Source of the DNA: a virus
Strand: one strand, 5' to 3'
Virus record (IMG/VR): IMGVR_UViG_3300022935_000005
Location: 62,001 to 126,000 of that record
DNA length: 64,000 nt
Notes under the pieces: generated by a model
Databases searched by the model: none
Told to the model about the DNA's origin: nothing
What the model saw: the letters and a program-made list of their open reading frames with translations, nothing else
Shown here: positions 3,682 to 43,874 of the stretch, piece by piece
Layout: every line of letters begins with the position of its first letter
How positions within the stretch are numbered: the stretch's first letter is position 1
Translations under genes and position numbers: made by a program

Positions 3682-6600
3682 AAGATACAAAGAACTCACC
3701 ATTTATACACGATATATCTAAATCTCTTGTCATTACAGGGTCTGCCGTTCCGGCGGCTGTCTCGTATGTGCGGTTTAATCACTTCCAAGATTCCGATACT
3801 GAGACCGGGACGTACATAACTGATTACGGAAACCCTACACAGCCATATAAGGTAGTGCAAGGAGACCGCGGTAATAACACGGGGAATTTTTGGGCGACGA
3901 CAGGATCACTAGACCAGCTAGACATATACGGAGAGAAGGTATACACGGATGAGGTTGTCCAGCCAGGTCTTAAAGTAAGAACTCTAATGAGCCAAAGGGG
4001 ACTGTCTCTACCGTTAAGCTCAGATCCTGTGTTTATATCAAAAGATATGAAAGACCTGTATTCGGATACAGATTGCGCATTGACTTTTATGGTCAAGCTG
4101 AAGTTGACCAGTGAATTAGAGTCGGATAAAGCTGTCATTATACTTGCTGACCATCCGCCCCCGGGTCCAGTCGTCGCAGCAACAGACGTTTTCTCTATTG
4201 CTCTGGATCATACGGAAGTAAAATGTGATTTCCAAAGTGTGTTCACGGGTGTACCACCGTTCCAGCTAAGTCTTTCAACAACTGGTCTCGCAACTTCTAC
4301 GTTCATAACAGTGTTTGGATCTTTTTCTGTTTCGTCTAGTGGGCTCATGACGGCTGAAAGATTCGCTGTCTACAGCACAGAGACGGGAGAAGAGCTGCAC
4401 TATGCATCAACTCTCCCCGCCGTCCTTAACAACGCTCCAACCCTTAATAATCCCGTGCTTTACGTTGGTTATGGAACAAAGAGCGTTAGCGGAGGGGTAA
4501 ATAACGAATTTCTTGAAGCAGATTTTGTAGAAGTAGATTTAGCTGAGATCGCAATATTCGATTCTGTCCTAACTCAAGAGCAGATGCAGACAATAGCTCG
4601 GTCGCATCTAGCAGAAAATCAATACAAGTCTGGATTCAACAACCGCTCACCAAGAAGAACGCAGCAGCTTTTAGATGCCAGAACTGTCTATCCGGCTTCT
4701 TCTAACCCAAGCTCTCCCGTAACTTCTGCTCCTGTCTTTAATGATCAGTTCACCAAGGTGTATGGAATCCAGCCCCAGTCAGGATCGGTTTCAGGAATTA
4801 TGTATCCCGAGATGTTACCAGCTTATATGTTTTCTGGAAGTGATGATTCTCGAGGTGCGGAAGGAAACGTAAAGCCGTTCTACAGAGACTTACATCAGAC
4901 TGAGTATGACAAAAGGTTGGTCGGCCCTGGTGTAATGAGACAGGGTCTGTCGCATAAAGAAACAGAGATACTTAATGTAGGTACTAGAAATTCTCCAATT
5001 GTGATCGGTGAGGACTCTGACGCTCTTGGCGGTACTATAGAGCCGTTTAATGATAACCATCCATTAGCTGATAAAAATGAGCAAGTCGCAGTAAGTGAAG
5101 ATGTGATACCGGGCTTGAATCAGCGCCTTGGTGATCATGTCGCTATCATAATTGACCTGAATCCAGTTGATGATACTACAATCGGTGTCGAAAGAACAGG
5201 CGGTGCGAAGTCTTGGCTTGGAGAGACCACAGGTCGTGTAACTTCGATGGCTTACTTTAACTTCGCCACTAGAAAGTGGGAAACAGCAGGCAAGAATAAC
5301 GACTTCGTGATACCGGGTGCTATCACGGTAAGCACTGGATCTGCTGTTGGTACAGGCACGATAGCTGATAAACTCGTCGATATATACACAAATGGATTTC
5401 AAGAGCTTGTCAACAGCTCTTCTATCGGGTTTGCTGGTACATCTGGATTCACGATTTACGAAGATAAAGGAAGTAGCGCATTTGCACCTCTAGCCTCTAG
5501 AGGCGCTCCAGTCACTTCTTATGGTTTTCCGTTACACCAGAAATACGAAGCAAAAGACGAACAGCTCATAGACATGTCTGATTATATCGACGCTCCGTTC
5601 GTTGTTGAAAGAGTTGCGTTTGAGGTTGGCGTAGCAGTAGAGGACTCTGGACCCCATTCGCTGGGCTACAAGTTAGAGACAAATCAAGACAATTCCAACC
5701 CGGGCGATAATTCGCAAATGCCGAACTTAAAATTCACGGCTGATGTCGATACTCCGATGGCAGCATTTCATGAGCATAATGAGTACGCGAAGCTTGTAGA
5801 CCATATGAGGGTGGAGGTTTCGAGAGGAAGCTTTATTAATGGCTCGTGGTGCATTGACGTCAATGACTTTAGCGCAGGAAGAGGGACTACGGTTGCAAGG
5901 TGGAACCGCCCGAGAGATTACCCTTACATGGCGTATTGGGACGCTAACACACTAAAAAATCGTTGTATAGCTTCAATATTTCTAGGTTATCAAAACCATC
6001 CACGCCAAGAGATACCAAACGCAGATTATAATCAACCCTACAGAGGCCTTAGTTTTCCTGTCCTTCCTGATAGACAAGCAAACCCGGGTTTTAGGTTTGT
6101 GATGGGAGCAGGCAGTCTATGGTCATACGCTGATTATTTCGGTCTTAATCCCGGCAACTACCCGGCAAGGATGATGCTACCAGTCGTTCCCGGCCCAAGG
6201 ACGGCTTCTGACCCCGGACACTCTCCCTCTTTACAAGGGTGGAATGATGGTGCCGCGTTACCTCCATCCAGAGACGAAAATGAGCCCGTTGCTGACTGGG
6301 CATTCGCTGATGTTAACGTTTCTTACATACCTCTGCTAGCAGCAGGTGTGAATGGACTAGTCACTGGATCAAACGACCCAACTGGTATCCGGAGACCTAC
6401 CCAGCATCCCATATCGTTCGTTGAGAAGCGTACTTATAAAACTCAGAACTGGGAGGACGTTAGCGCAGCTAGTATTAATGACTGGGGTCTTTTTGAAGAG
6501 CCTGGTGTTCCTTTCTGGAGAGCTGACACGTTCTTTTTGCTGAGACAGACAAAGTCAGATGAGAAACTAAAAGTGCAGTTTTCATTTGAGTTTACGTCGG

Positions 6601-9600
6601 ATAGCTCTAAGGTGTTTTTCCCGTTGTGCCCGTGGGCAACCGGGCAGCAGCCTCAGAAGATTTACGGTATGCGGTTCGACTCCGGTGGCATAAAATTTAG
6701 AAGAACAACCAACCGAGAAATGGAGCAAATGCATGGTTACAGGTGTGTAACATCTCGCGCGTGGTATGGCGACTTCTCTGGTTATCCTCCTGTTGACCCG
6801 ACAAACGGTGTCTTGCTCGCCAACGGAGCTGAACTTAAGACATTATATTCTATAGGGAAGAGTGACCTTAAGGTCGGGTGGGAAACTGAGACAGACACGA
6901 TCAGAGAGCTAGTCACATTCGGCCAGGTCACACATTACGGGTACTGCGCTGCTCAAGACGGCTATGTCGACAAGATAGTAAACACCGCCAACATAGACCG
7001 TGGACTCGGATTAACATCAGGATCATGGGATGGCGACTTTCGGACAGCTGTCGTCGACACACGTCAAGCGCTATTTGGACAAGCTATGAAGCTCAGCAGG
7101 ATGCAGACCGCTGGGAACTCTGTAATACCTGCCGACCCTTTCACTGTTAATGCCACGTACGCAACACAATATTCTCAATTTTCTGACGCACCAAATTCTT
7201 TCCAGGGTTCGTGGTCTTTTTCTCCCGGGGAATCCCATCTTGATGGCTTTAGAAACTGGTTACCGTCTTTTACATGGGCTGATAGCGAGACCAACCCCGC
7301 CTCCCCCAATTCCTCCACACCTACTACGGGTATCAATATAAGCGGCCAGGGTCGTTATAAAACTATGACGTTCGACGGTGCTTCATACAGTGAACAACTT
7401 CTTTCGTTCCCTCGGTGGACCGGTACTTCGTATCATGCGGGTGGCGCCGATGTTTCTCATACTCTGGATAATTGGCAACCGTTGTTACTTGTGCAGAAGT
7501 CGCAGGTCCGAACCTTGTCTGGATCTTGTCTTTGGGATTTATGGGACGCCGTTGATAACCAGATGCAAGAATATGCCGGTACCGGCACCTCTGAAAGAGA
7601 GATTGAACCATTAATCCCGGGCGGTTCTGGATTTTCAATAATATCTACTCCGGCGTGGCCAATTGGGTCGACAGATGCAGTTGATCGTGAAATTAATAGT
7701 GAAGGTGTTATCAGATATACATCAGCAGGTGATCAACCGTACTTATTTGGCCGTATCACCGCAGGTATTGAAGCGGATGGTTTTCCCGGTACGAACGTAG
7801 GTAATCCACCCGTCTACCAAAGATATGCCGATTTTAAGTGGTGGGGTGGTTTCGACACTCCCCCACTTTCAAGACCATCTCAAATAACGGATTTTCTTGG
7901 CGAGCGCCCGTTAACTGGCTGGTTACAGGCTGGGCTAGGCAAGGAAAAGAATATCTACATTGGTCAAGGCGCAAAGCACGGAGGTACCAATATAGATTAT
8001 GATGACAACTGGTCTGGCTTTACGTTAATGACGGCATCCACAGTGTATCGTCCTTGGGGGATCCCTGGAAGCGAAAATGCCACTCTTCCACTGCACGCTA
8101 ATGTGTATAAGAGACAGTGGTTAAACTATGAAGAAAACTTAACATTTGAAGTGCCAATAAAAACCGTGACGCCGACAACAGCTCATGATTCTGGATACTG
8201 GGTTGTGACAGCAGAAGATGTGTGGGGCCCACAGCTGAGTGATGTCGAAGGAACGCCGGGTGTAATATTTGTGCCATTTTCACCCACAGGCGCGGCCAGC
8301 AAGCAGGCTATACCTTGGATAAACAGAACTGCCTCTAACTTCGCTATGCATGCGAAGAGGTACCACAGAAGGTACACGATGTCACCATCTCGAGGCGGAT
8401 ATAACGTTGGTCCTCTGGCTGATGGATTTAACTCTGGCCGTGTTTTCTTTAGAAACGTCGCTGCTGCGACCCAGTCTGGTGCGCAGTTTCAGAGAAAATT
8501 CACACCAAGCATCTTACATGGCAACGGCCGGATAGAGAATGAAGGTACCATCGACCCAACCCTCGAAGCCCAACAAATATATTACGAGGATAGGTATAAC
8601 TCTCAAGATCAGGCTTTAGTGACAGGAAGCATCGCGACAGAGCAGGCGCAGCAGTCTCTCTATGTGTTAAAGCCGTCTGATAAGCTTATTTTAGGTGTGC
8701 AACCTTCTTTACCCGGGTGGAATGCCGGCTCTGGACTACCGAACAACAGGTGGTCAAATAAATGGGGTACGTGGGATTATAAAGAATCAAATGCTACAGA
8801 GCGTGTAAGAAGCCTAGACGCCGATGTTGACGGAACGCACAAAGACTGCTTGATGAACCTAGAAGATCCCTATGAGCCTTGTCACGGCCTGACGATGCTC
8901 AAAGGTCCCAGCCGGATTGTTCTGTACGGTTCATTCTTACGTGATAACAAACATTACTCTCCAAGCTCTAAGCAACAGCTTCGCTCTGCTGCTGTGCACG
9001 AAGCACTTCACTATGACAACCCTGTACTTGATCAGTTCTTAACTGATAACGCATATGAGTACACAGGTAATACCCTGGCTCAACACATCACTGGTAGCAT
9101 GTTGGATGGTGATAGAGGCGTTGCGGGTACACTGGCAGCGGGTAACTTAACATTCAGTGGAAGCTTCCAAAGGTTCACCAGAGCGACTGAAGATAGTCAA
9201 GTGTTTTATGACACGCTTTTGCATGATCCTTTTGATATATGCGAAATAGACGGGGTCGTTCGAAAAGGAATACAAGCAGGAGGCTACGCTGTCATTAACA
9301 TGTTTATGCCTAATGACTGGTTAATTCCGACGACTGCAGAGTATATTGACACCGCCACCATCAACCTCGTCACAGACTACGCTTTTTCTAGTGCATGGCC
9401 GCATTCTTTTCCTTTTGAAGAAAAGTATTCTAACGTAAAAAGATTGGTTTCACGAGATCTATCGTTCGTCCCTAGAAGATTAGGTTTTGGCTCTCTCCTC
9501 GAACCAAATTCCCTCTACTTTGGGCTGTCAAGCGCCATGTATCAGTATCCCCTAGGGTCATCTCCCCTGCAACTTAATAACGAAGACGCAAGTGACCCAT

Positions 9601-32598: not shown

Positions 32599-35034
32599 GT
32601 GTCCCTTTTCAAGCTGGACAAAAGCTATTTCGATTCTTTCAAGGTCTTAGCGAAACCTAAGAGAACCTTTTCATCATCCAGTAGTGGTGTCACGGGATCG
32701 ATACCTGTGTATCCCGGCGCATCCGTGCAGATGAAAGAGGTGGTTCTTTCTTTTTCTGATGACCTTGTAGATGATGAAACAGCTGAGTCGTTACGACAAG
32801 ATATAATAAAGACGGGAGTTAACAAGAATTCTTTAGAAGAATACTTGACTGCCGTGAATGCAGAGACAGCCAACGCTCGACTCAACAAGAAGGTCGAAGT
32901 CTTTCGATTCGAACCTTCATTCCGCTTTACTAGCGATACGATAAGAAAGTGCGTCATCAAGGACGTCTTGTATCCGTTCTATAGAATTAGATATGGTAAG
33001 GCTTGTAACTGGGCATTCACGAACTATAACACCCTAAACTTTTTCTCAACACAAGATGATACGGTACCTGAAGACGCGGTATTGATATATCCCGCAACAG
33101 GGTCATACAAATATAGACCTACTGGATCATTCTCGTTTGAGTTTTATATCAACCCCCGGTATCATGAATTCACACGTCATGGAGAGTTTCCAGCCGGCAC
33201 TCTGTTGCATCTTTCTAGTTCGTATGCTGTTTCCCTTGTCTCTGGAAGCTCAAGGGATTCTAATGGCTTTGTGGATGGCTTCAGACTGATGTTACAGTTG
33301 AGTCATTCTGCAGAGATACCGCCATCAGAGTGTAGTTTAACTCTAAACGACTCAACTCGTACTGAACCTTATGACTTCATATTTTCGTCGTCAGATAATT
33401 CACTTACTAGAAATCGCTGGCACCACTGTTGCATTCGGTGGGACAATAATACTCAGAACTCCACAGGTTCCTTCATCATCGACGGTGAGACTAAGGGAAC
33501 TTTTGATATTCCCACTTCCGCATTGAGTGGTAGTTATCTACAGCGTGAGCTACCGAGTACTGTAGATAGAGGGCTACCTTCTCTGTCTGGCTTAGGCCCA
33601 CCAGACGCTTTATTTGTTGGTAACTTTTATGTCGGTCCTAATTCAGATGGAGGCACAACTGAAGACTACACTTCACAGTTCTTTAATCCGGATGTTGCTT
33701 ACTCTGACGGAATAATGAATTACTACGGTCCGACTATCACACATGAAACTAATCCTGCTGACAAGCCCGGTGAACCAGATATCTTTTCTTTCACTCACCC
33801 CTTGAACGCAGAAGTTCATGAGGTAAAGATCTATAACAAGTATCGTACAGACTTTGAGATTGATGAAGCTCGCCAGAACGGATTTACGAGCTTGGAGAGT
33901 GAAAAGTCATCAGGGCTTCTCTTCTATCTTCCTCCCTTCTTCGTAAAAGACACAGCAGAGCGTGATGTTTTGCAAACGCCATTCCAGACTGCTAGGGGAT
34001 CTACTGACGACCCGTTTAACGTTCCCCTATCATTCGGCGTCGGCGGACACTATCTAAACTTAGAAAACTTTACCAAAGAATTCGTAGAAGGTGTGTGGCC
34101 TCGATTATTCGCGTTGTCTGGATCAACAATAGACGATTCGACTGGGTGGTCAACTGCAAATAATTTCTTGTTCACAACAGGTAGCGTTAGAAAGAGAAAC
34201 CTGACGATTCTTCCAAACGACAACGGTTTATTTATACCAAACTTTGGGCTTCTTGAGGAGGGTATAACGGATCCCGGACTGACGGGTTCACTGTCTTTGT
34301 ATAAGGATGATTCTGGCTCTAAAAATCTAATGCTTGTCAACTTGTCTGAATTGCTGCCAACGGCATCGGTTGGTAGAGGATTGTTAGGTACAGAGACAGA
34401 AGGTAGTATATCTGAAAGCCTACAAGGAGCCACTCCTGATGACCCAAGTGTTCCAGCTGGCTCAATATTGACGATCTATAATAGAACTCGAGACCCTTCA
34501 TCAAATGAAATCACAATTTTTGATGCTAGTAATCTGTTCTACGGAAATAAGATTGATCCTGGTACGTATGTGTTGACAGATTCGTCTATAACAGGCTCCG
34601 GCGGTAGAGTTGCCATAACACTTAACGATCACAGCGGGAGCCTATACAGGGCCGACTGTGATACTCCAAGAGCAAAGTGGAATCCTGTCGGCGCCCTTTT
34701 ATATGAAGAAGGTATTGCAACAGTACAGACACCCCTCATTCCACGTTTCGGCGCTGATCAGTTTGAGGTATCTTTTGATGGTCAACAAAACATTCACGTT
34801 TTGCGTATAGATGTACCTGCAGATCGTGGTGATCTAGATCTTTCTACGAATCCTTCGTTCCTGCAATTAGACCCCACGGATCAGCCTGCTGATGAGGGCA
34901 CAAAGTTTTGCTATATCACTAACGTTAACTTACATGACGAAAATCTTAATATTATAAGTAAGACAAATTTCTCTCAAGCTTTAGTCAAGAGAGAGAATGA
35001 TAAGTTTGTGATTAGGATAAAGCTGGACTTTTAA
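32599..35034 (+). CDS. LamG-domain tail/baseplate protein, 811 aa, with C-terminal LDF module
   Basis: GTG start preceded by TAGGGGG. Residues ~173-430 form a LamG/concanavalin-like domain (FSFEFYINPRYHEF, NRWHHCCIRWDNN, AEVHEVKIYNKYRTDFEIDE), similar in style to the truncated protein at the left edge of the window. The C-terminal ~55 residues (FCYITNVNLHDENLNIIS, ending IRIKLDF) match the preceding protein. LamG domains commonly bind glycans, so this may contribute to host-surface contact from the baseplate. The stop overlaps the ATG of the RuvC-like nuclease gene (TAATG), joining structural and DNA-metabolism genes in one transcript. Confidence 0.65.
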   Translation: MSLFKLDKSYFDSFKVLAKPKRTFSSSSSGVTGSIPVYPGASVQMKEVVLSFSDDLVDDETAESLRQDIIKTGVNKNSLEEYLTAVNAETANARLNKKVEVFRFEPSFRFTSDTIRKCVIKDVLYPFYRIRYGKACNWAFTNYNTLNFFSTQDDTVPEDAVLIYPATGSYKYRPTGSFSFEFYINPRYHEFTRHGEFPAGTLLHLSSSYAVSLVSGSSRDSNGFVDGFRLMLQLSHSAEIPPSECSLTLNDSTRTEPYDFIFSSSDNSLTRNRWHHCCIRWDNNTQNSTGSFIIDGETKGTFDIPTSALSGSYLQRELPSTVDRGLPSLSGLGPPDALFVGNFYVGPNSDGGTTEDYTSQFFNPDVAYSDGIMNYYGPTITHETNPADKPGEPDIFSFTHPLNAEVHEVKIYNKYRTDFEIDEARQNGFTSLESEKSSGLLFYLPPFFVKDTAERDVLQTPFQTARGSTDDPFNVPLSFGVGGHYLNLENFTKEFVEGVWPRLFALSGSTIDDSTGWSTANNFLFTTGSVRKRNLTILPNDNGLFIPNFGLLEEGITDPGLTGSLSLYKDDSGSKNLMLVNLSELLPTASVGRGLLGTETEGSISESLQGATPDDPSVPAGSILTIYNRTRDPSSNEITIFDASNLFYGNKIDPGTYVLTDSSITGSGGRVAITLNDHSGSLYRADCDTPRAKWNPVGALLYEEGIATVQTPLIPRFGADQFEVSFDGQQNIHVLRIDVPADRGDLDLSTNPSFLQLDPTDQPADEGTKFCYITNVNLHDENLNIISKTNFSQALVKRENDKFVIRIKLDF

Positions 35035-35567
35035 TGAGGCTTGGACTAGACGTATCTACATCAAATGTCGGGTGGTGTTTGCTAAATGAAGCAGGTAGCA
35101 TAGTCACTGCCGGGGCTGTTGAGCTTTCAAAAAAGAAAGACATCTTCGACAAAGCACTAGCCGTCCGCGAAGCACTACGTGATATAAGCAGAGATCATGA
35201 AGTAACAGATGTCGCGATAGAAGAGAATCTACAAGCGTTCCGTCCTGGATTCTCTAGCGCAAAGACAATCGTTACGCTGGCAAGATTCAACGGTATTGTC
35301 ACTCTTATCGCATTCGAAGAGCTAAATGTCCAGCCAGAGTTTGTGAACGTCAATTCTGCTAGAAAACTCGCTGGCTTGAAAATAATCAAGAAGTCTGATG
35401 TAACCACGAAAGACCAAGTCTTAAATTTTGTGAAAGAGAAGGAACCAACTTTCGAGTGGCCGACTCGAACCCTCAAGTCAGGCGCAAGAAAAGGTCATGT
35501 AATACCAGCCGATTGCTGTTATGATATAGCAGATGCATATATTGTAGCAGCAGCCGGTTGTGTTTAA
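35034..35567 (+). CDS. ruvC: RuvC-like Holliday-junction endonuclease, 177 aa
   Basis: The fold signature is clear: LGLDVSTSNVGW at residues 3-14 with the first catalytic Asp at position 6, VAIEENLQAF with Glu 63/64, and a C-terminal DIADAYIVA with Asp 164/167. This arrangement and the length (E. coli RuvC is 173 aa) fit a RuvC-type RNase H-fold resolvase that cleaves branched DNA. In T4 this job is done by the unrelated gp49, so this phage uses a different solution. It would clear junctions before packaging and during recombination-dependent replication. It is coupled to both neighbours by TAATG overlaps and is followed by a primase and a recombination nuclease. The family is confident; the exact substrate is inferred. 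Confidence 0.85.
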   Translation: MRLGLDVSTSNVGWCLLNEAGSIVTAGAVELSKKKDIFDKALAVREALRDISRDHEVTDVAIEENLQAFRPGFSSAKTIVTLARFNGIVTLIAFEELNVQPEFVNVNSARKLAGLKIIKKSDVTTKDQVLNFVKEKEPTFEWPTRTLKSGARKGHVIPADCCYDIADAYIVAAAGCV

Positions 35568-36535
35568 TGAGTGAAGATCTTCTCATAAGAAAAAGAATAA
35601 AGCTGATTCGAGATGCTTTTGGTGACGTTCTTCTAGATAGAGACGGAGTTAATGCTGCGATCTGCTGTATTAATCCGAAGTGTTCGACATACGGAAAAAA
35701 GCATAAGAAGAAGCTGTGTCTTAGGGTTGATAATGAGTTTTATCACTGCTGGGTGTGTGGTACAAGAGGTAAGGGCCTCGCTCGTTTCTTCAAGATTCAC
35801 GCTCCTCGATATTACAACATCGCTGAAGACATCTTTCACAAACAGGTAAAAGAAAAAGAAGCCCAACAAGAGAGAATTACGCTTCCTGAAAACTTTAGGC
35901 TACTAGCAGCCATCGGTAGAAATGCCGATCCGGATCTTAAGGCTGTAAAAAAGTATGTTCTTCAGCGTGGGGTTACCGAGAAGCAAATGTGGTATTTTAA
36001 AATGGGAGCCGTTCCCTCCGGTCGTCTACGCAGAAGAGTTATAATTCCGTCTTTCGATTCAGAGGGCTTCTTAAATTACTACACTGCTCGCTCAATCGAT
36101 GAAGATAACAGGAAGTATGTAAACCCAAAAGTAAAGAGGTCTGAAATTATCTTTAACCAGATTAATATAGACTGGTCTAAGCGACTGATTTTGGTAGAAG
36201 GACCATTTGACTTAATAAAGAGTGTTCAAAACTCTACTTGCCTGCTCGGGTCTTCTTTAAGCGAGAACCACCTGTTATTCCAAGAAATTGTTAAGAATAA
36301 TACACCCGTGACTCTAGTACTTGATCCGGACGCTAAACTAAAATCACAGAAAATTGCGTCATTACTGCACTCATATGACGTTGATGTAAAAACTTTAGAC
36401 ATAGAGCCCCATACAGATGTCGGAGAAATGCCTCTCGGTAAACTGTCTAAAATGCTTGAGCGAGCAGTACCGTGGTCCTCGAACGATAGATTGAGATCTC
36501 TAATAAGTACAATTCGCTCCGGCTCCTTAATATAG
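35567..36535 (+). CDS. DNA primase, gp61-like, 322 aa (zinc-binding plus Toprim)
   Basis: The ATG at 35567 overlaps the upstream stop; a TTG nine bases earlier is less likely. Cys 34 and Cys 39 with the YHCWVCGTRG motif (Cys 61, Cys 64) form a CHC2-type zinc-binding domain. A Toprim domain follows: LILVEGPFDLIKS supplies the acidic Glu, and VTLVLDPDAKLKS the Asp-x-Asp pair. The length matches T4 gp61 (342 aa) rather than bacterial DnaG (~580 aa), and no helicase part is fused. It should lay RNA primers for lagging-strand synthesis with a phage helicase encoded elsewhere. It is encoded inside the late structural run, an unusual place for a replication gene. Confidence 0.85.
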   Translation: MSEDLLIRKRIKLIRDAFGDVLLDRDGVNAAICCINPKCSTYGKKHKKKLCLRVDNEFYHCWVCGTRGKGLARFFKIHAPRYYNIAEDIFHKQVKEKEAQQERITLPENFRLLAAIGRNADPDLKAVKKYVLQRGVTEKQMWYFKMGAVPSGRLRRRVIIPSFDSEGFLNYYTARSIDEDNRKYVNPKVKRSEIIFNQINIDWSKRLILVEGPFDLIKSVQNSTCLLGSSLSENHLLFQEIVKNNTPVTLVLDPDAKLKSQKIASLLHSYDVDVKTLDIEPHTDVGEMPLGKLSKMLERAVPWSSNDRLRSLISTIRSGSLI

Positions 36536-36553: not shown

Positions 36554-39500
36554 ATGACTTTAAAGTGCGCGCATTTTGCAGATATTCACTTTCGAGGCCT
36601 TTCCCGCCACGACGAATATAGAAAAGTGTTTTCTCAATCATTCGAGAAACTAAAAGAATTGCAACCTGATATCATCTTCTTGGGTGGGGACATTGTACAT
36701 TCTAAAACCCAAGGAATCTCACCAGAGCTAATCGATATCCTACGCTGGTGGTTCACCAGCCTTGCTGACATTGCTCCAGTGCATATAATACTTGGCAATC
36801 ATGACGGTCTAATGACAAACGAAGATCGTTTAGATGCAGTTACGCCGATTGTAAGAGCGATTGGTGACCCTAGAATCAAACTCATGAAGGGTACAGGAGT
36901 GTATCCGACGGGAATTCCCGGGTACAACTGGTGTGTATTTTGTTGTTTTGACCCTAAGGGCTGGCCTGACTTAAAGCCTCCGGAAGATGGAATCAACATT
37001 GCGTTATATCACGGTCCTGTGAATGGTTCACTAACTGACCAAGACTGGGAAATTAATGGCGATAGCGTTAAAGTTGACTTTTTTAAAGGCTTCGACTACA
37101 CTATGCTGGGAGATATCCACAAGAGACAGTTTCTGACTGAAAAAGTAGCATACCCTGGTTCTACGATACAACAGAACTATGGCGAGGACGTTGAGAAAGG
37201 TTTCTTGTTTTGGGAAATTCGAGATAAAGACGACTTTGATGTTAAATTTATAGAACTGAAGAATGACCATGCTTTTCGTTCAATAAAGTGGCAAGGAGAT
37301 GTTTCTTCGACACTGGATGAAGTCCAAGATGACTGGACAGGTTCAAGGTTTAGAGTGATCCATAAAGGGATGACTCAAACTGAATTTAAGCAGCTTCAGA
37401 ATTCCTTAAGGGAAAAGTACGATGCGTATGAGGTCGTCTCCAAGAATGAGCAGGAAAGCTTCAAGGGGGCTGATACTGAGATCGCGACAAGCATCGGGAA
37501 AATATCAAGGAATGACCTTAGAAGCTTCAAACAACAAGACGCCTTGATGTCTGAATACGTCAAGCGTATGGAGCTTTCTGATGAAGACAGACAGTCACTA
37601 CGAGAACTGCATAAAGACGTATTCGGAAGGTGTGTTCAAGAGGCCTCCGCCAAGTCACACCAGTGGAGACTTCGGCGCCTAAATTTTGATAACACGTTTG
37701 GGTATGGAGAAGGCAACATAATAGATTTCGATACCTTGAACGGTATAACGGGAATATTCGGTAAGAACAGGGTCGGCAAATCTTCAATTCCTGGCACGAT
37801 ATCTTATTCTCTATTTAATGCCTCTGATCGTGGCACTCTTAAGAACATCCATATCGTAAACAATCGAAAGAATTATTGCAAAGCCGCCGCCGACTTTTCA
37901 GTAGCTGGAGAGATGTGGAGAGCAGAAAGACAGACAGTAAAGAGAACCAACAGAAACGGTGTCGTATCTGCTCCAACGAATTTGAATCTATTCAGAATAG
38001 ATGAATCGGGTAACCCAATAGAAGACGCAACCGGTGAACAGCGCAGAGAAACAGAAAAGACTCTGCGCGAATTAGTCGGTACTGTAGACGACTTTATGAT
38101 GACGTCATTCGCTTCTCAAGGTGGAATGGATGCCTTCATCAAAGAGGGCTCAACACAACGTAAGAATATACTGACCCGCTTTTTGGACTTACAGATCTTT
38201 GATGACATGTTAAAGATAGCTAAGGGAGAGATGTCTGAGCTTCGAGGGGAGATGAGATCTGCTCCTGATCGTAATTGGCAAGAATTGATTGATGAACAGT
38301 CATCCCTTGGAGAGAAGCTAAATTTGGAGATATCTGAAGTAGAGGAAGAGCTAGTATCTCTTAAGAAAGATAGGGATGACCTAAAGATAAAGTTAGCTGC
38401 TCTACCAGATTCAGAGCTTTATACGAAAGAGCAAATACAGGAGCAGGTACAAAAGCTTTCTGATATGAACACCAAGCGCGAAACTCTTTCAAAAAAGATA
38501 ATTGAGCTGTCTAACAGCATTGACACAGCTTCAAAAAAGATAGAAAAGATTGGCCTTATAAAAGAGCAGTTCCCCATTGAAGAACTGAGGAAAGAATTTG
38601 ATACTCAAAAAGCTCTACAGTCGCAGCAAGAACTAATAGAGTCAAAGTTAGAGTTAGAACTACAACGCCTTGACAGCAAGAAAAAGTCCGCTAAAAAACT
38701 TGAGAGAGTGCCTTGTGGTGACCAATTCCCAAAATGTCCGTACATCAAAGATGCCCACAAGAGCGCTTCTGAGTTAGATGATCAAAAACTTGTTATAACT
38801 GGTGTGAGAAAAGAGTTAAGAGCCCTCAAGTCGAATATACAAGCGCTGATGGAAAAGGGCTTGTCTGAAAGACTGCTTAAATACGAGGACCTCTTGAAGA
38901 AAGAGAGCTCTTTGAGAATTAGCCATTCAGACTTTCGTTTAGAAATGAAAGAGATTGAAAGTGATCATCAGGATGCTATCAACTTCATAAAGGAAGGAAA
39001 GACTCAACTTCGAGAGATGCGCCTTCGCTCCATCGACGAAGAAAAAGATACGGCTGTAATCGCAATGAGAGATCAGCTAAAGAAAGTTGAGGATAGAATA
39101 AGCAATCTTGATGCAGAGAGATTATACCTCACTGAACAGATAAGTGTGGCAAAGCAGAAGAAGATTACTTTGATCGAAGAGAATCGGAGGTTCGGCGCTG
39201 TTAAGTCAAGGTGGGAGACATATAACGTGTTTATGCAAGCTGTTGACAAGAAGGGTATCCCACTCACAATCTTGTCTTTACAGCTACCACAAATCAACAA
39301 TGAGCTAACAAAGATCCTACAAGGAGTTGTAAACTTTGACCTTTCCCTTGAAGCCGATTTAGAGTCTAACAATATGGAGATCTTTATAGATTACGGAGAT
39401 TCAAGGAGAATAATTGAGTGTGGTTCCGGAATGGAAAAAATGATTTCTTCGCTAGCCCTTCGAGTCGCACTAATCAACGTATGTAATGCGCCAAGGAGCG

Positions 39501-39697
39501 ACGTACTCATAATAGATGAAGGGTTTGGAGCTTTAGATGATAAGAACATTGAGGCATGCTCCAGACTGCTTGAATCTCTTAAGAAGTATTTTGCAAACAT
39601 ACTTATCATATCTCACGTTGATGCTATGAAAGACGTGGTTGATAACGTCTTGGACATCCAAAAGAACGGAAAGGACTCATATGTCAGATGCACATGA
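36554..39697 (+). CDS. Fused Mre11-Rad50 type nuclease/ATPase (gp47-gp46 fusion, SbcDC-like), 1047 aa
   Basis: Residues 1-~340 are a calcineurin-like nuclease: DIH (10-12), GGDIVHS (44-50), GNHD (81-84), YHGPVN (~155) and GDIHKR (~188). Residues ~375-1047 are a Rad50/SbcC ATPase: P-loop GKNRVGKSS near 403, long coiled coils at ~570-890, a hook tip CGDQFPKC (721-728), signature region CGSGMEKMISSLALR near 956, Walker B VLIIDEGFGALDD near 985 and H-loop ISHVD near 1018. In T4 gp47 and gp46 are separate proteins that process DNA ends for recombination-dependent replication; here both are in one chain with no internal stop. The canonical CxxC zinc hook is replaced by C-x6-C. GGAG precedes the ATG. 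The assignment is firm; the consequences of fusion are inferred. Confidence 0.93.
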   Translation: MTLKCAHFADIHFRGLSRHDEYRKVFSQSFEKLKELQPDIIFLGGDIVHSKTQGISPELIDILRWWFTSLADIAPVHIILGNHDGLMTNEDRLDAVTPIVRAIGDPRIKLMKGTGVYPTGIPGYNWCVFCCFDPKGWPDLKPPEDGINIALYHGPVNGSLTDQDWEINGDSVKVDFFKGFDYTMLGDIHKRQFLTEKVAYPGSTIQQNYGEDVEKGFLFWEIRDKDDFDVKFIELKNDHAFRSIKWQGDVSSTLDEVQDDWTGSRFRVIHKGMTQTEFKQLQNSLREKYDAYEVVSKNEQESFKGADTEIATSIGKISRNDLRSFKQQDALMSEYVKRMELSDEDRQSLRELHKDVFGRCVQEASAKSHQWRLRRLNFDNTFGYGEGNIIDFDTLNGITGIFGKNRVGKSSIPGTISYSLFNASDRGTLKNIHIVNNRKNYCKAAADFSVAGEMWRAERQTVKRTNRNGVVSAPTNLNLFRIDESGNPIEDATGEQRRETEKTLRELVGTVDDFMMTSFASQGGMDAFIKEGSTQRKNILTRFLDLQIFDDMLKIAKGEMSELRGEMRSAPDRNWQELIDEQSSLGEKLNLEISEVEEELVSLKKDRDDLKIKLAALPDSELYTKEQIQEQVQKLSDMNTKRETLSKKIIELSNSIDTASKKIEKIGLIKEQFPIEELRKEFDTQKALQSQQELIESKLELELQRLDSKKKSAKKLERVPCGDQFPKCPYIKDAHKSASELDDQKLVITGVRKELRALKSNIQALMEKGLSERLLKYEDLLKKESSLRISHSDFRLEMKEIESDHQDAINFIKEGKTQLREMRLRSIDEEKDTAVIAMRDQLKKVEDRISNLDAERLYLTEQISVAKQKKITLIEENRRFGAVKSRWETYNVFMQAVDKKGIPLTILSLQLPQINNELTKILQGVVNFDLSLEADLESNNMEIFIDYGDSRRIIECGSGMEKMISSLALRVALINVCNAPRSDVLIIDEGFGALDDKNIEACSRLLESLKKYFANILIISHVDAMKDVVDNVLDIQKNGKDSYVRCT

Positions 39698-40293: not shown

Positions 40294-41892
40294 ATGCCGC
40301 CGCTAAGTAAGCAAAAGCAAATAAGCGAGATTGTAAAGTGTGGAAAAGATCCAGCTTACTTTATAAATCGTTACGTGCAGATTCAGCATCCTATGAAGGG
40401 AAGAATTTCATTTCACACCTTTCCATTCCAGGATGATTGCTTACAGCAGTTTAACGATCATAGATTTAACGTAGTAGTAAAGTCACGACAGTTGGGTCTT
40501 TCAACCCTAACTGCAGCCTATGCTGTCTGGCTGGCTATGTTCAGAAAAGATAAAAGCATTCTGGTAATCGCCACGAAGTTAGCGGTTGCTCAAAACTTTA
40601 TTAAGAAAGTCAAGGTGGCACTGTCTGGAATACCACAATGGATGTGGATAACTGAAATTACTGCAAAGAATACACAAGCGATAGAGTTTAGTAATGGTTC
40701 TCAAATAAAAGCCGTACCAACGTCCGATGATGCTGGTCGTTCTGAAGCCTTGTCACTGCTAATTGTGGATGAGGCTGCTTTTATTAGAAACTTTGATGAG
40801 CTCTGGAAGGGTCTGTATCCCACTCTTTCAACTGGTGGTCGAGCTATATTAGTTTCAACCCCGAATGGGACTGGCGGCCAATACTACGACATCTACCATG
40901 GCGCCGAGCAGAAATCTAACGAGTTTAACGCTATAAAGCTTCCTTGGGATGTCCACCCCGAGAGAGATGATGCATGGTTTCAAAAAGAGGCTCGAAATCT
41001 TAACAAGCAACAGATTGCACAAGAGTTGCTTTGCGATTTCCAAGCGTCTGGTGACACATTTCTGTCAACAGAAGACATAGAGCGGCTGCAAATGAATATT
41101 CGGTCTCCGATAGAGAAATGGGGACCAGAGAATGCTGTCTGGGTATGGAAGTACTTTATACAAGGTCATAACTACGTAATATCTTCTGATGTTGCTAGAG
41201 GTGATGGGAGTGATTACTCTACTTTCCATGTGATAGATACCACAGAATCAGAGGTAGTGGCGGAGTTTAGAGGCAAAGTTCCGCCAGACCAACTTGCTGT
41301 ACTGTTATCAGAAGCAGGACGTCGATATGGGGATGCTGTAGTTTGTCCAGAAAGCAACACATACGGTTATGCTGTGTTGATGAAACTCCGCGAAATGAAT
41401 TACAAAAACATCTATTTTGCGAAAGAAAAAGACAAGTTTAATGCCATATATGGTGATGGAGCTATTGGCAAAGCTGGTTTCTCTACCCAGGGAGCTAGTC
41501 GTGCTCAGATACTGACAAAGCTTGAGGAGATGATAAGAAATAACCGCGTTGACATATATTCATCTCGACTCGTGTCAGAGTTTAAGACCTTTGTGTGGAG
41601 CGGATCGAAAGCTCAAGCCCAGCGCGGTAAAAATGATGATCTAGTCATGTCGTTAGCAATTGGTCTGTGGTTGTATGAGTACTCGTCAAAGAAATCGTCC
41701 AAGTCAGTTGATATAAATTCTGCTATGTTAGCCGCATTTGGAGTCAATAAACAACAGTCACGTGACTCGAAGCCTAGAAGCCCCTATTCGTACGAGATGG
41801 CTTATCTTGCGAGAAAAGGGATGCCAGTAGAAATGGATGAAAGTCATCCTGCTGTTTCTGGGTCTGTAGATTTTAAGTGGCTGCTATCGTGA
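40294..41892 (+). CDS. terL: Terminase large subunit (gp17-like packaging ATPase/nuclease), 532 aa
   Basis: The N-terminal ATPase has a deviant Walker A, VVVKSRQLGLST at about 60-71, in which the lysine precedes the loop instead of the usual GKT; Walker B LLIVDEAAFI lies near 155-164 with the catalytic Glu after Asp; a coupling motif STPNGTGG follows. The C-terminal RNase H-fold nuclease shows SSDVARGDGSD near 297, VCPESNTYG near 350 and GKNDDLVMSLA near 445, the acidic triad expected. It docks at the portal, pumps DNA into the prohead and cuts concatemers. It lies directly upstream of the portal gene, as in many myophages. The assignment is very sure. Confidence 0.95.
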   Translation: MPPLSKQKQISEIVKCGKDPAYFINRYVQIQHPMKGRISFHTFPFQDDCLQQFNDHRFNVVVKSRQLGLSTLTAAYAVWLAMFRKDKSILVIATKLAVAQNFIKKVKVALSGIPQWMWITEITAKNTQAIEFSNGSQIKAVPTSDDAGRSEALSLLIVDEAAFIRNFDELWKGLYPTLSTGGRAILVSTPNGTGGQYYDIYHGAEQKSNEFNAIKLPWDVHPERDDAWFQKEARNLNKQQIAQELLCDFQASGDTFLSTEDIERLQMNIRSPIEKWGPENAVWVWKYFIQGHNYVISSDVARGDGSDYSTFHVIDTTESEVVAEFRGKVPPDQLAVLLSEAGRRYGDAVVCPESNTYGYAVLMKLREMNYKNIYFAKEKDKFNAIYGDGAIGKAGFSTQGASRAQILTKLEEMIRNNRVDIYSSRLVSEFKTFVWSGSKAQAQRGKNDDLVMSLAIGLWLYEYSSKKSSKSVDINSAMLAAFGVNKQQSRDSKPRSPYSYEMAYLARKGMPVEMDESHPAVSGSVDFKWLLS

Positions 41893-41924: not shown

Positions 41925-43874
41925 ATGGCTGAAAAGGGAAATATATTTCAGAGACTGACAAGCCTCTTTCGAAGCGGTCCCACTGTAAAGCGGAGGGTAA
42001 GATCATCCGTTACTTCGAATATGAAGTCATCTGCTGTTGAGACTTTCCGTCGCGCTCATAATGACGTTTATTCTAACACACTGAGTGCCTATGGTTCCTT
42101 CGATAGAATGTCAAGGTACAGTGACTTTAGCGAGATGGAGGCGACTCCTGAGATTGCTTCTGCTCTAGATATCTACTCTGAAGAGACAGTGTCTCCTGAC
42201 GAGCATGGCCGAGTTTTACACATTTACTGTGAGGATGATCTAAAGAAAGAGATACTTGAGTCTCTCTTCTATGACACTCTCAACGTAGAATTTAATCTCG
42301 TCATGTGGGTAAGAAATCTTTGTAAGTACGGAGATTTTTTCCTTTTTAATGATATCGATCCGAATTATGGTGTTGTCAATGCCTACCCGATTCCGATATC
42401 TGAAATGGAAAGAGAAGAAGGGTTTGACCCCGAGAACCCATCAGCAGTAAGATTTCGTTGGCTTACTCAAGGAAATCAATCTTTAGAGAACTGGCAAATA
42501 TCTCACTTTCGTCTGCTCGGAAATGACGCCTTCCTCCCATATGGGTCTAGCGTCCTCGAGTCAGCCCGCCGAATTTGGCGCCAGTTGATACTTATCGAAG
42601 ATGCGATGTTGGTCTACAGGGTGATCAGAGCTCCTGAGAGAAGGGTTTTCTACGTAGACGTAGGTAACGTTGCTCCTGAAGATGTTCCTAACTACATGGA
42701 GCAAGCAACGTCAGTTCTTAAAAAAGCACCAGTGATAGACAAATCCTCTGGTAAGGTCGATCTAAGATACAACCCACTTAGTGTTGATGAAGATTATTTC
42801 ATTCCTGTTCGTGGCGGCGATAGTGGCACACGAATTGACTCTTTAGCTGGTGGCCAAAACACAGCTGCGATCGAAGATGTTGAATACATTCAAAAGAAAC
42901 TGTTTGCCGCCCTTAAGATTCCTAAAGCGTATCTTGGGTATGATGAAGATATCGGTGCTAAAGCAACCTTAGCTCAAGAAGACATAAGGTTCAGTCGTAC
43001 TATCCAGAGAATTCAAAAAACTGTTATTTCCGAGCTGAACAAACTTGCTATGATCCATCTTTATGTGCACGGCTTTGACGGCGAAGACCTTCTTGATTTT
43101 GAGCTGAAGCTTTCTAACCCGTCCTCAGTTGCACAATTACAAAAGCTTGAGCTAATCTCTCAAAGGTTTGATATAGCTGGTAAGGTTCCTGAAGGTATGC
43201 TCGACCGCCGGTGGGTACAGAAGAATGTTCTTGGGTTAACTGATAAGCAGATACAAGAAGTTCAAGAAGGTCGGATACAAGACAAGGTTGATGACGCTGG
43301 AGTTGAAGGCGCCGGCGCTGAAGGTGAAGGTGGAGGTGCAGAAGGTGGAGGCGATGAGGGTGGCGGCCTATTCTCTGCCGACGTTCCGTCGAACGGTCAA
43401 CTTCTAACTGCTGAGCCCTCGACGGGTTCAAAGATTGTAGACGACGAAGAAGAAGATGATGACTACATTGATATCGCGTCTTTGTCAATTGACGATGAAT
43501 CGTCTCCAATCAAAGCGCAAGCAGCGTATAGAAAGCAACCTAATTCTAAGAGCACTCGGGGTCCAGGTACTACACACATGCCAGACTTCAAAGGGATGGT
43601 GACAAACAAGAGATCACAAGATTCGATGCGTCGTCCTTTCGGTGATGATTATCTTCGGCCTGCTTTTGAGGGAACGGAACCCTACGATGATGATAGTTAT
43701 TCACATAAGCCAAAACTTCGTTCTCCGATGACTCCGGAAATGAAGAGTGTTTATAGTTCTTTAGTTAATATTTTGAGTCCACAAGGCGGAGTGCTTTTAT
43801 CGGAAGCAAACAACAATGAAGGGGAAAGAAATCCTCTTGAAGAATACGATGCCGGAGAAATAGATGAAAGTTAA
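41925..43874 (+). CDS. gp20: Portal protein (gp20-like), 649 aa
   Basis: The region NTLSAYGSFDRMSRYSDF and MEATPEIASALDIYSEE at about residues 50-85 is characteristic of T4 gp20-type portals, and the core up to ~450 follows that plan (RRIWRQLILIEDAMLVYR, KLFAALKIPKAYLGYDED). Portals form the dodecameric ring through which DNA enters and to which the neck attaches. T4 gp20 is 524 aa; the extra length is a Gly/Glu-rich linker near 459-485 and an acidic, disordered-looking tail. The tail includes LLSEA near the end, which fits the LxE-A pattern cut by T4-type prohead proteases (inference). The gene end overlaps the next ATG by 11 bases. Confidence 0.93.
   Translation: MAEKGNIFQRLTSLFRSGPTVKRRVRSSVTSNMKSSAVETFRRAHNDVYSNTLSAYGSFDRMSRYSDFSEMEATPEIASALDIYSEETVSPDEHGRVLHIYCEDDLKKEILESLFYDTLNVEFNLVMWVRNLCKYGDFFLFNDIDPNYGVVNAYPIPISEMEREEGFDPENPSAVRFRWLTQGNQSLENWQISHFRLLGNDAFLPYGSSVLESARRIWRQLILIEDAMLVYRVIRAPERRVFYVDVGNVAPEDVPNYMEQATSVLKKAPVIDKSSGKVDLRYNPLSVDEDYFIPVRGGDSGTRIDSLAGGQNTAAIEDVEYIQKKLFAALKIPKAYLGYDEDIGAKATLAQEDIRFSRTIQRIQKTVISELNKLAMIHLYVHGFDGEDLLDFELKLSNPSSVAQLQKLELISQRFDIAGKVPEGMLDRRWVQKNVLGLTDKQIQEVQEGRIQDKVDDAGVEGAGAEGEGGGAEGGGDEGGGLFSADVPSNGQLLTAEPSTGSKIVDDEEEDDDYIDIASLSIDDESSPIKAQAAYRKQPNSKSTRGPGTTHMPDFKGMVTNKRSQDSMRRPFGDDYLRPAFEGTEPYDDDSYSHKPKLRSPMTPEMKSVYSSLVNILSPQGGVLLSEANNNEGERNPLEEYDAGEIDES

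Follow-up and report, generated by a model that had tools for sequence, protein, structure and literature searches.

We find that a virus record from IMG/VR encodes the nuclease and ATPase parts of a Mre11-Rad50 (SbcCD) machine in a single chain, and that the tip of its coiled coil carries a conserved C-x6-C motif (Cys721, Cys728) instead of the CxxC zinc hook of Rad50/SbcC. Accounts of the zinc hook usually give it as CxxC, a motif conserved throughout the living world. What seems new here is the hook; the fusion is known. In the reading that we regard as likely, this is a single-chain phage Mre11-Rad50 that would process DNA ends within a conserved RuvC-primase-fusion-terminase module and would dimerize through a widened, probably zinc-binding hook; its activity, dimer, zinc and role in infection we infer. 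The window, the whole stretch of 64,000 nucleotides that we analysed, covers positions 62001-126000 of a 280,913-base record, and contains the following features:

35034-35567, + strand: RuvC-like Holliday junction resolvase (PHROG_159, PHROG_827)
35558-36535, + strand: DNA primase-like protein, immediate neighbour of the fusion gene (PHROG_47, E 2.1e-34)
36554-39697, + strand: Mre11-Rad50 fusion gene, 1047 aa and stop (identical in contigs L001-L003)
36554-37288, + strand: Mre11/SbcD-type nuclease domain, residues 1-245, with D10, H12, D46, N82, H83, H153, D187 and H189 (Pfam, relatives, model)
37301-37633, + strand: putative capping and two-helix (HLH-like) Rad50-binding region, residues 250-360 (secondary structure of the model; analogy to SbcD/Mre11)
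37634-37660, + strand: linker between the Mre11 and Rad50 parts, residues 361-369, of low confidence at 363-365 (model)
37661-38191, + strand: Rad50 N-terminal ATPase lobe, residues 370-546, P-loop at 37760-37786 (alignment, profiles, model)
38192-38707, + strand: predicted ascending coiled-coil helices, residues 547-718 (model)
38708-38737, + strand: predicted hook tip loop VPCGDQFPKC, residues 719-728, Cys721 codon at 38714-38716 and Cys728 codon at 38735-38737 (both models)
38738-39244, + strand: predicted descending coiled-coil helices, residues 729-897 (models)
39257-39694, + strand: Rad50 C-terminal ATPase lobe, residues 902-1047, with SGME, Walker B IIDE, D-loop and His1021 (alignment, profiles, model)
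40294-41892, + strand: terminase large subunit, downstream (PHROG_2, E 1.2e-50)
41925-43874, + strand: portal protein, downstream (PHROG_213)

Translation of 36554-39697 (+) yielded 1047 residues with a single, terminal stop; the reverse strand of this stretch is not open, with many stops. The calcineurin-like phosphoesterase motifs of Mre11/SbcD (DxH, GD, GNH, H, GDIH) are present as DIH (residues 10-12), GGD (44-46), GNHD (81-84), YHG (152-154) and GDIH (186-189). The ABC-type motifs of Rad50/SbcC, including the D-loop, follow, split by an antiparallel coiled coil: P-loop GKNRVGKS (403-410), signature SGME (958-961, versus SGGE in Rad50/SbcC ATPases), Walker B IIDE (986-989) and H-loop His1021. 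Both domains lie in one uninterrupted chain with Mre11 first, and the earlier note's claim that all nuclease and ATPase motifs share one 1047-aa frame is borne out by the translation, the motif positions and the Pfam and PHROG matches. Pfam Metallophos matches residues 4-190 (E 1.9e-10, above cut-off), SMC_N and SbcC_Walker_B match the C-terminus more weakly, under their cut-offs, and PHROG_77 (SbcC-like) covers residues 253-1044 (E 2.5e-47); solved SbcC, Rad50, Mre11 and SbcD were all matched in a profile search. Across 72 aligned fused chains D10, H12, D46, H83, H153, D187 and H189 are present in every sequence and N82 in 71; the lysine of Walker A and the acidic residues of Walker B likewise show no variation. 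A protein search found the fused gene once in the 280,913-base record, and searches with phrog_77 and Pfam Metallophos found no second SbcC- or Metallophos-type gene in that record, which may be incomplete.

We modelled the full chain with AlphaFold2 as a single chain, using an alignment of 37 window and locus sequences. The model has a mean pLDDT of 84 and a pTM of 0.48, the low pTM meaning that relative domain placement is unreliable. Foldseek against the PDB matched this model to Mre11-Rad50 and SbcCD chains, and to other SMC-type proteins too; the best match (E 2e-20) was to a Rad50 chain, and 7dog (SbcD nuclease and cap) superposed with an rmsd of 4.1 over 338 columns. In a library of predicted viral structures the top matches were whole fused chains, from giant viruses and from Tenacibaculum and Listeria phages. 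The elements of the Mre11/SbcD capping domain and HLH are seen in the model and in the fold match to 7dog, and binding to the base of the Rad50 coiled coil is predicted. Between the last HLH helix and the first Rad50 strand the model leaves nine residues, within the 9-12 residue linker estimated from the T. maritima complex as needed to mimic two-subunit geometry (PMC3175470).

In the mechanism that we propose, the chain would be a complete Mre11-Rad50 (SbcCD) machine: the Mre11 part would cut DNA, the helix-loop-helix region would sit, via the short linker, on the base of the same chain's Rad50 coiled coil, and ATP would close two Rad50 heads on a DNA end. The working dimer would consist of two chains that are joined both by their nuclease/head ends and by their hooks. 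Each hook would be a remodelled Rad50 zinc hook: an eight-residue C-x6-C turn begins and ends with a cysteine, an invariant proline stands two residues before the second cysteine, and the four cysteines of two chains would most likely hold one zinc ion. As the earlier note pointed out, the fused chain fixes a 1:1 ratio; canonical Mre11-Rad50 complexes are already M2R2, and the fixed ratio therefore need not change anything. Because its stoichiometry is fixed, a single-chain Mre11-Rad50 suits structural work.

The hook rests on conservation and on position. The earlier note had read CGDQFPKC in place of CxxC; we located Cys721 and Cys728 at the tip and found their spacing kept in relatives. A scan with the hook pattern samples circularly, by its own DNA pattern, and was controlled with hook-independent N-terminal and Walker B patterns: all 19 distinct sequences from the N-terminal search carry C-x6-C, and the Walker B search returned 45 with C-x6-C and 11 with CxxC among 56 sequences with a hook region. 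Judged from these sequences, almost all of the family keeps C-x6-C, and the objection that the cysteines might not be conserved in relatives falls away. A 132-residue tip alignment of 35 diverse sequences has only Leu716, Cys721, Pro726 and Cys728 invariant; these sequences were chosen for C-x6-C, which makes the invariance of the cysteines a matter of selection, whereas the prolines and the position were not selected. A model of the tip fragment (mean pLDDT 90, about 75 at the loop) has a helix to 718, a loop at 719-728 and a helix from 729, which puts Cys721 inside the turn and Cys728 at its end; the full-chain model has helices at 547-718 and 732-897. In both models the loop lies between two long helices and is the less certain part (pLDDT about 71-75). 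Sequence and fold searches with the tip fragment matched no solved zinc hook, only unrelated coiled coils, a structure that carries little signal. The Pro-x-Cys pattern suggests a four-residue insertion between the first cysteine and the proline, compared with CxxC; MAFFT instead pairs Cys728 with the first cysteine of the CxxC in the type of Microcystis phage Mel-JY01.

In published accounts the canonical hook forms a CXXC beta-hairpin (PMC9569753, PMC5093744), a geometry that the longer turn could alter. We found no description of a wider hook spacing in the literature searched, where subscription papers were thinly covered, and the 2011 paper on the fusions makes no mention of the hook (PMC3175470); for this large family of uncultured phages, the C-x6-C spacing appears to be a previously unreported feature. 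Conserved cysteines that bracket the modelled tip loop, together with the invariant Pro-x-Cys, favour a hook that works, and by analogy the widened hook is probably zinc-binding. The same enzyme might instead use its tip cysteines to pin the loop within one chain, through a disulfide or an intrachain metal with other ligands, and dimerize by the Mre11 part and heads alone. C-x6-C is indeed wider than any hook in the literature we found, and the well-conserved His735 (60 of 72 chains) could be a further ligand. Two close relatives, L004 and L011, however, lack this histidine, and a disulfide would be unlikely to persist in the cytoplasm. Canonical hooks form a zinc bridge at the same place with dimerization as their basic role (PMC6969161). 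C-x6-C and CxxC tips also seem to have replaced each other within the family while the remainder of the protein was kept (L256), which fits two tips with the same task. We consider the intrachain arrangement unlikely, and favour the zinc-bridged dimer.

Gene order points to the role of the enzyme. Counted over distinct loci with enough flank, a RuvC-like resolvase lies at most 3 kb upstream of the fused gene in 82 of 96 and a primase-like gene lies beside it in 89 of 96, while the terminase large subunit is downstream in 109 of 121 and the portal in 93 of 121. In the window a head protease lies downstream as well. Because this order (RuvC-primase-fusion-terminase-portal) is conserved, we favour an enzyme that serves the late DNA metabolism of the phage itself. 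Gene order and T4 gp46/gp47, which serve recombination-dependent replication (PMC3175470), together favour end processing for such replication and the preparation of branched concatemers before packaging. Acting beside RuvC, primase and terminase, the enzyme would process DNA ends, hairpins or branched concatemers during late replication. Mre11-Rad50 nucleases can degrade DNA broadly, and the fused enzyme might mainly attack host or rival DNA or degrade the host chromosome; a position between primase/RuvC and terminase kept in about 90% of loci argues for the phage's own metabolism instead, as does the T4 precedent, and we think such an attack improbable as the main function.

We rejected the fusion as a novelty. 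Mre11/Rad50 fusions were published in 2011 from Mimivirus, Bacillus phage 0305phi8-36, plasmids, bacteria and eukaryotes, with homologues abundant in aquatic viral metagenomes (PMC3175470), and the earlier note's view that the fusion is unusual for phages is not supported. Its phage-protein search, carried out here, found fused ORFs in the named phages Microcystis phage Mel-JY01, Listeria phage LMTA-57, Xanthomonas phage XacN1 and Tenacibaculum phage PTm1, and in many IMG/VR relatives. Its statement that T4 and bacteria use two subunits is right for the two genes of T4 gp46/gp47 and of SbcCD and too general beyond them, several phages being fused. In a review of jumbo phages, SbcC and SbcD are dealt with separately and as almost universal (PMC7824862). 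Three further IMG/VR contigs (L001-L003) carry the identical ORF, the N-terminal pattern search returned relatives at 48-74% identity, all 19 distinct sequences fused, and the hook-pattern scan and later searches followed the fused layout to about 30% identity. That a sequencing or assembly artefact erased a stop and start between two genes, an objection raised beforehand and one to which split gene forms in the family might lend colour, is ruled out for practical purposes by the identical contigs and dozens of fused relatives, and where genes of the family are split, the break falls within the nuclease and spares the Mre11/Rad50 junction.

Among known systems, the Mimivirus R555-type fusions (Yoshida, Claverie and Ogata 2011, PMC3175470) likewise run Mre11 then Rad50, keep the capping domain and HLH, have a short linker and are frequent in aquatic viruses; the fused chains of Tupanvirus, Harvfovirus, Yasminevirus and Catovirus are the closest viral predicted structures. 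The phage chain differs from these giant-virus fusions in its sequence (18-22% identity), its length, about 300 residues shorter than most, and its C-x6-C hook. T4 gp46/gp47 and bacterial SbcCD share the nuclease and ATPase motifs, the coiled-coil ATPase and the recombination role, but are encoded by two genes, and the phage SbcC-like proteins checked here have CxxC hooks (CHTC, CPTC, CPLC, CPVC), unlike C-x6-C. The closest named isolate, Mel-JY01 (28% over 99%), is fused and has a primase-like gene close upstream; the huge-phage records LR756508 and LR756501 also encode fused chains. The hooks of these three are CKHC, CEYC or CVTC, of CxxC type and not C-x6-C.

We placed the hook types on a quick maximum-likelihood tree of 54 fused chains, whose root is uncertain and in which long outgroup branches meet. 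The C-x6-C label needs three changes on this tree, against a mean of 12.5 for shuffled labels, and none of 500 shuffles was as low; a history that would fit is a single gain of C-x6-C, with a reversion to CxxC in L256 and a lengthened loop in L205. L256 comes closest to the C-x6-C clade in its nuclease and ATPase lobes (up to 66%, 59% and 61%) but to the Mel-JY01 type in its tip (48% versus 37%), which suggests a tip exchange. L256 and L286 both appear as C-x6-C-clade proteins with a CxxCC tip of Mel-JY01 type, likely natural tip swaps (L286 from the tally only), and L205 is fused with a longer tip, VPCTSPC...SSCKFI, of three cysteines.

Wide hooks also occur apart from fusion. SbcC-like ATPases of Burkholderiales plasmids (L323-L327) have a conserved VPC-x8-C hook, and Moorella phage MTATph1 has VPC-x7-C; like the fused family these start with VPC, place the second cysteine just before the returning helix and are wider than CxxC, but they differ in having a separate ATPase gene and x7 or x8 spacing, and are only distantly similar. 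Fusion and wide hook are separable, because fused CxxC relatives and these unfused proteins exist, and we rejected a tight link between the two, each being found without the other.

The C-x6-C family is known here almost only from uncultured phages. At least 595 relatives were found in IMG/VR among the 600 pattern stretches listed; the queries used on 50,697 phage records brought up no C-x6-C member, and 84,980 bacterial species genomes gave one match. This match (L310, Marivivens MAG contig JALRLK010000053.1) lies at a contig end, where the ORF of an ABC-transporter ATPase switches abruptly to phage hook sequence; it looks like a chimeric contig end and we rejected it as a bacterial wide hook. 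Tentatively, the family may be an old and abundant fused clade, so far of uncultured, apparently mostly aquatic phages only, in which CxxC was replaced by a rebuilt C-x6-C hook with geometry, metal affinity or opening unlike the canonical one, and in which tips were exchanged with CxxC types, making the hook modular and evolvable. A large natural family with another, strictly conserved spacing, tip swaps and unfused wide-hook relatives provides a ready set of variants for asking what the hook needs: a stable dimer, zinc affinity, opening.

Other members vary in the fusion itself. Listeria phage LMTA-57 (L312) is annotated with a single 1009-aa recombination exonuclease, a fused Mre11-Rad50 with a CPTC hook; in one search only two Listeria records matched nearly full length, so fusion may be uncommon in this group or may reflect an error. 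Eight members (L057, L059, L078, L083, L118, L123, L148 and L158) have the chain split within the nuclease domain, just past GDIHK; the stop of the first ORF overlaps or directly adjoins the start of the second, and on a tree this state needs three changes. A search of Rfam found no known intron in the split or interrupted genes. In L158 an endonuclease-like ORF lies between the two parts, and in L014 (LR756508, about 4900-6700) the fused gene is interrupted past GDIHK, where an endonuclease-like ORF lies in another frame.
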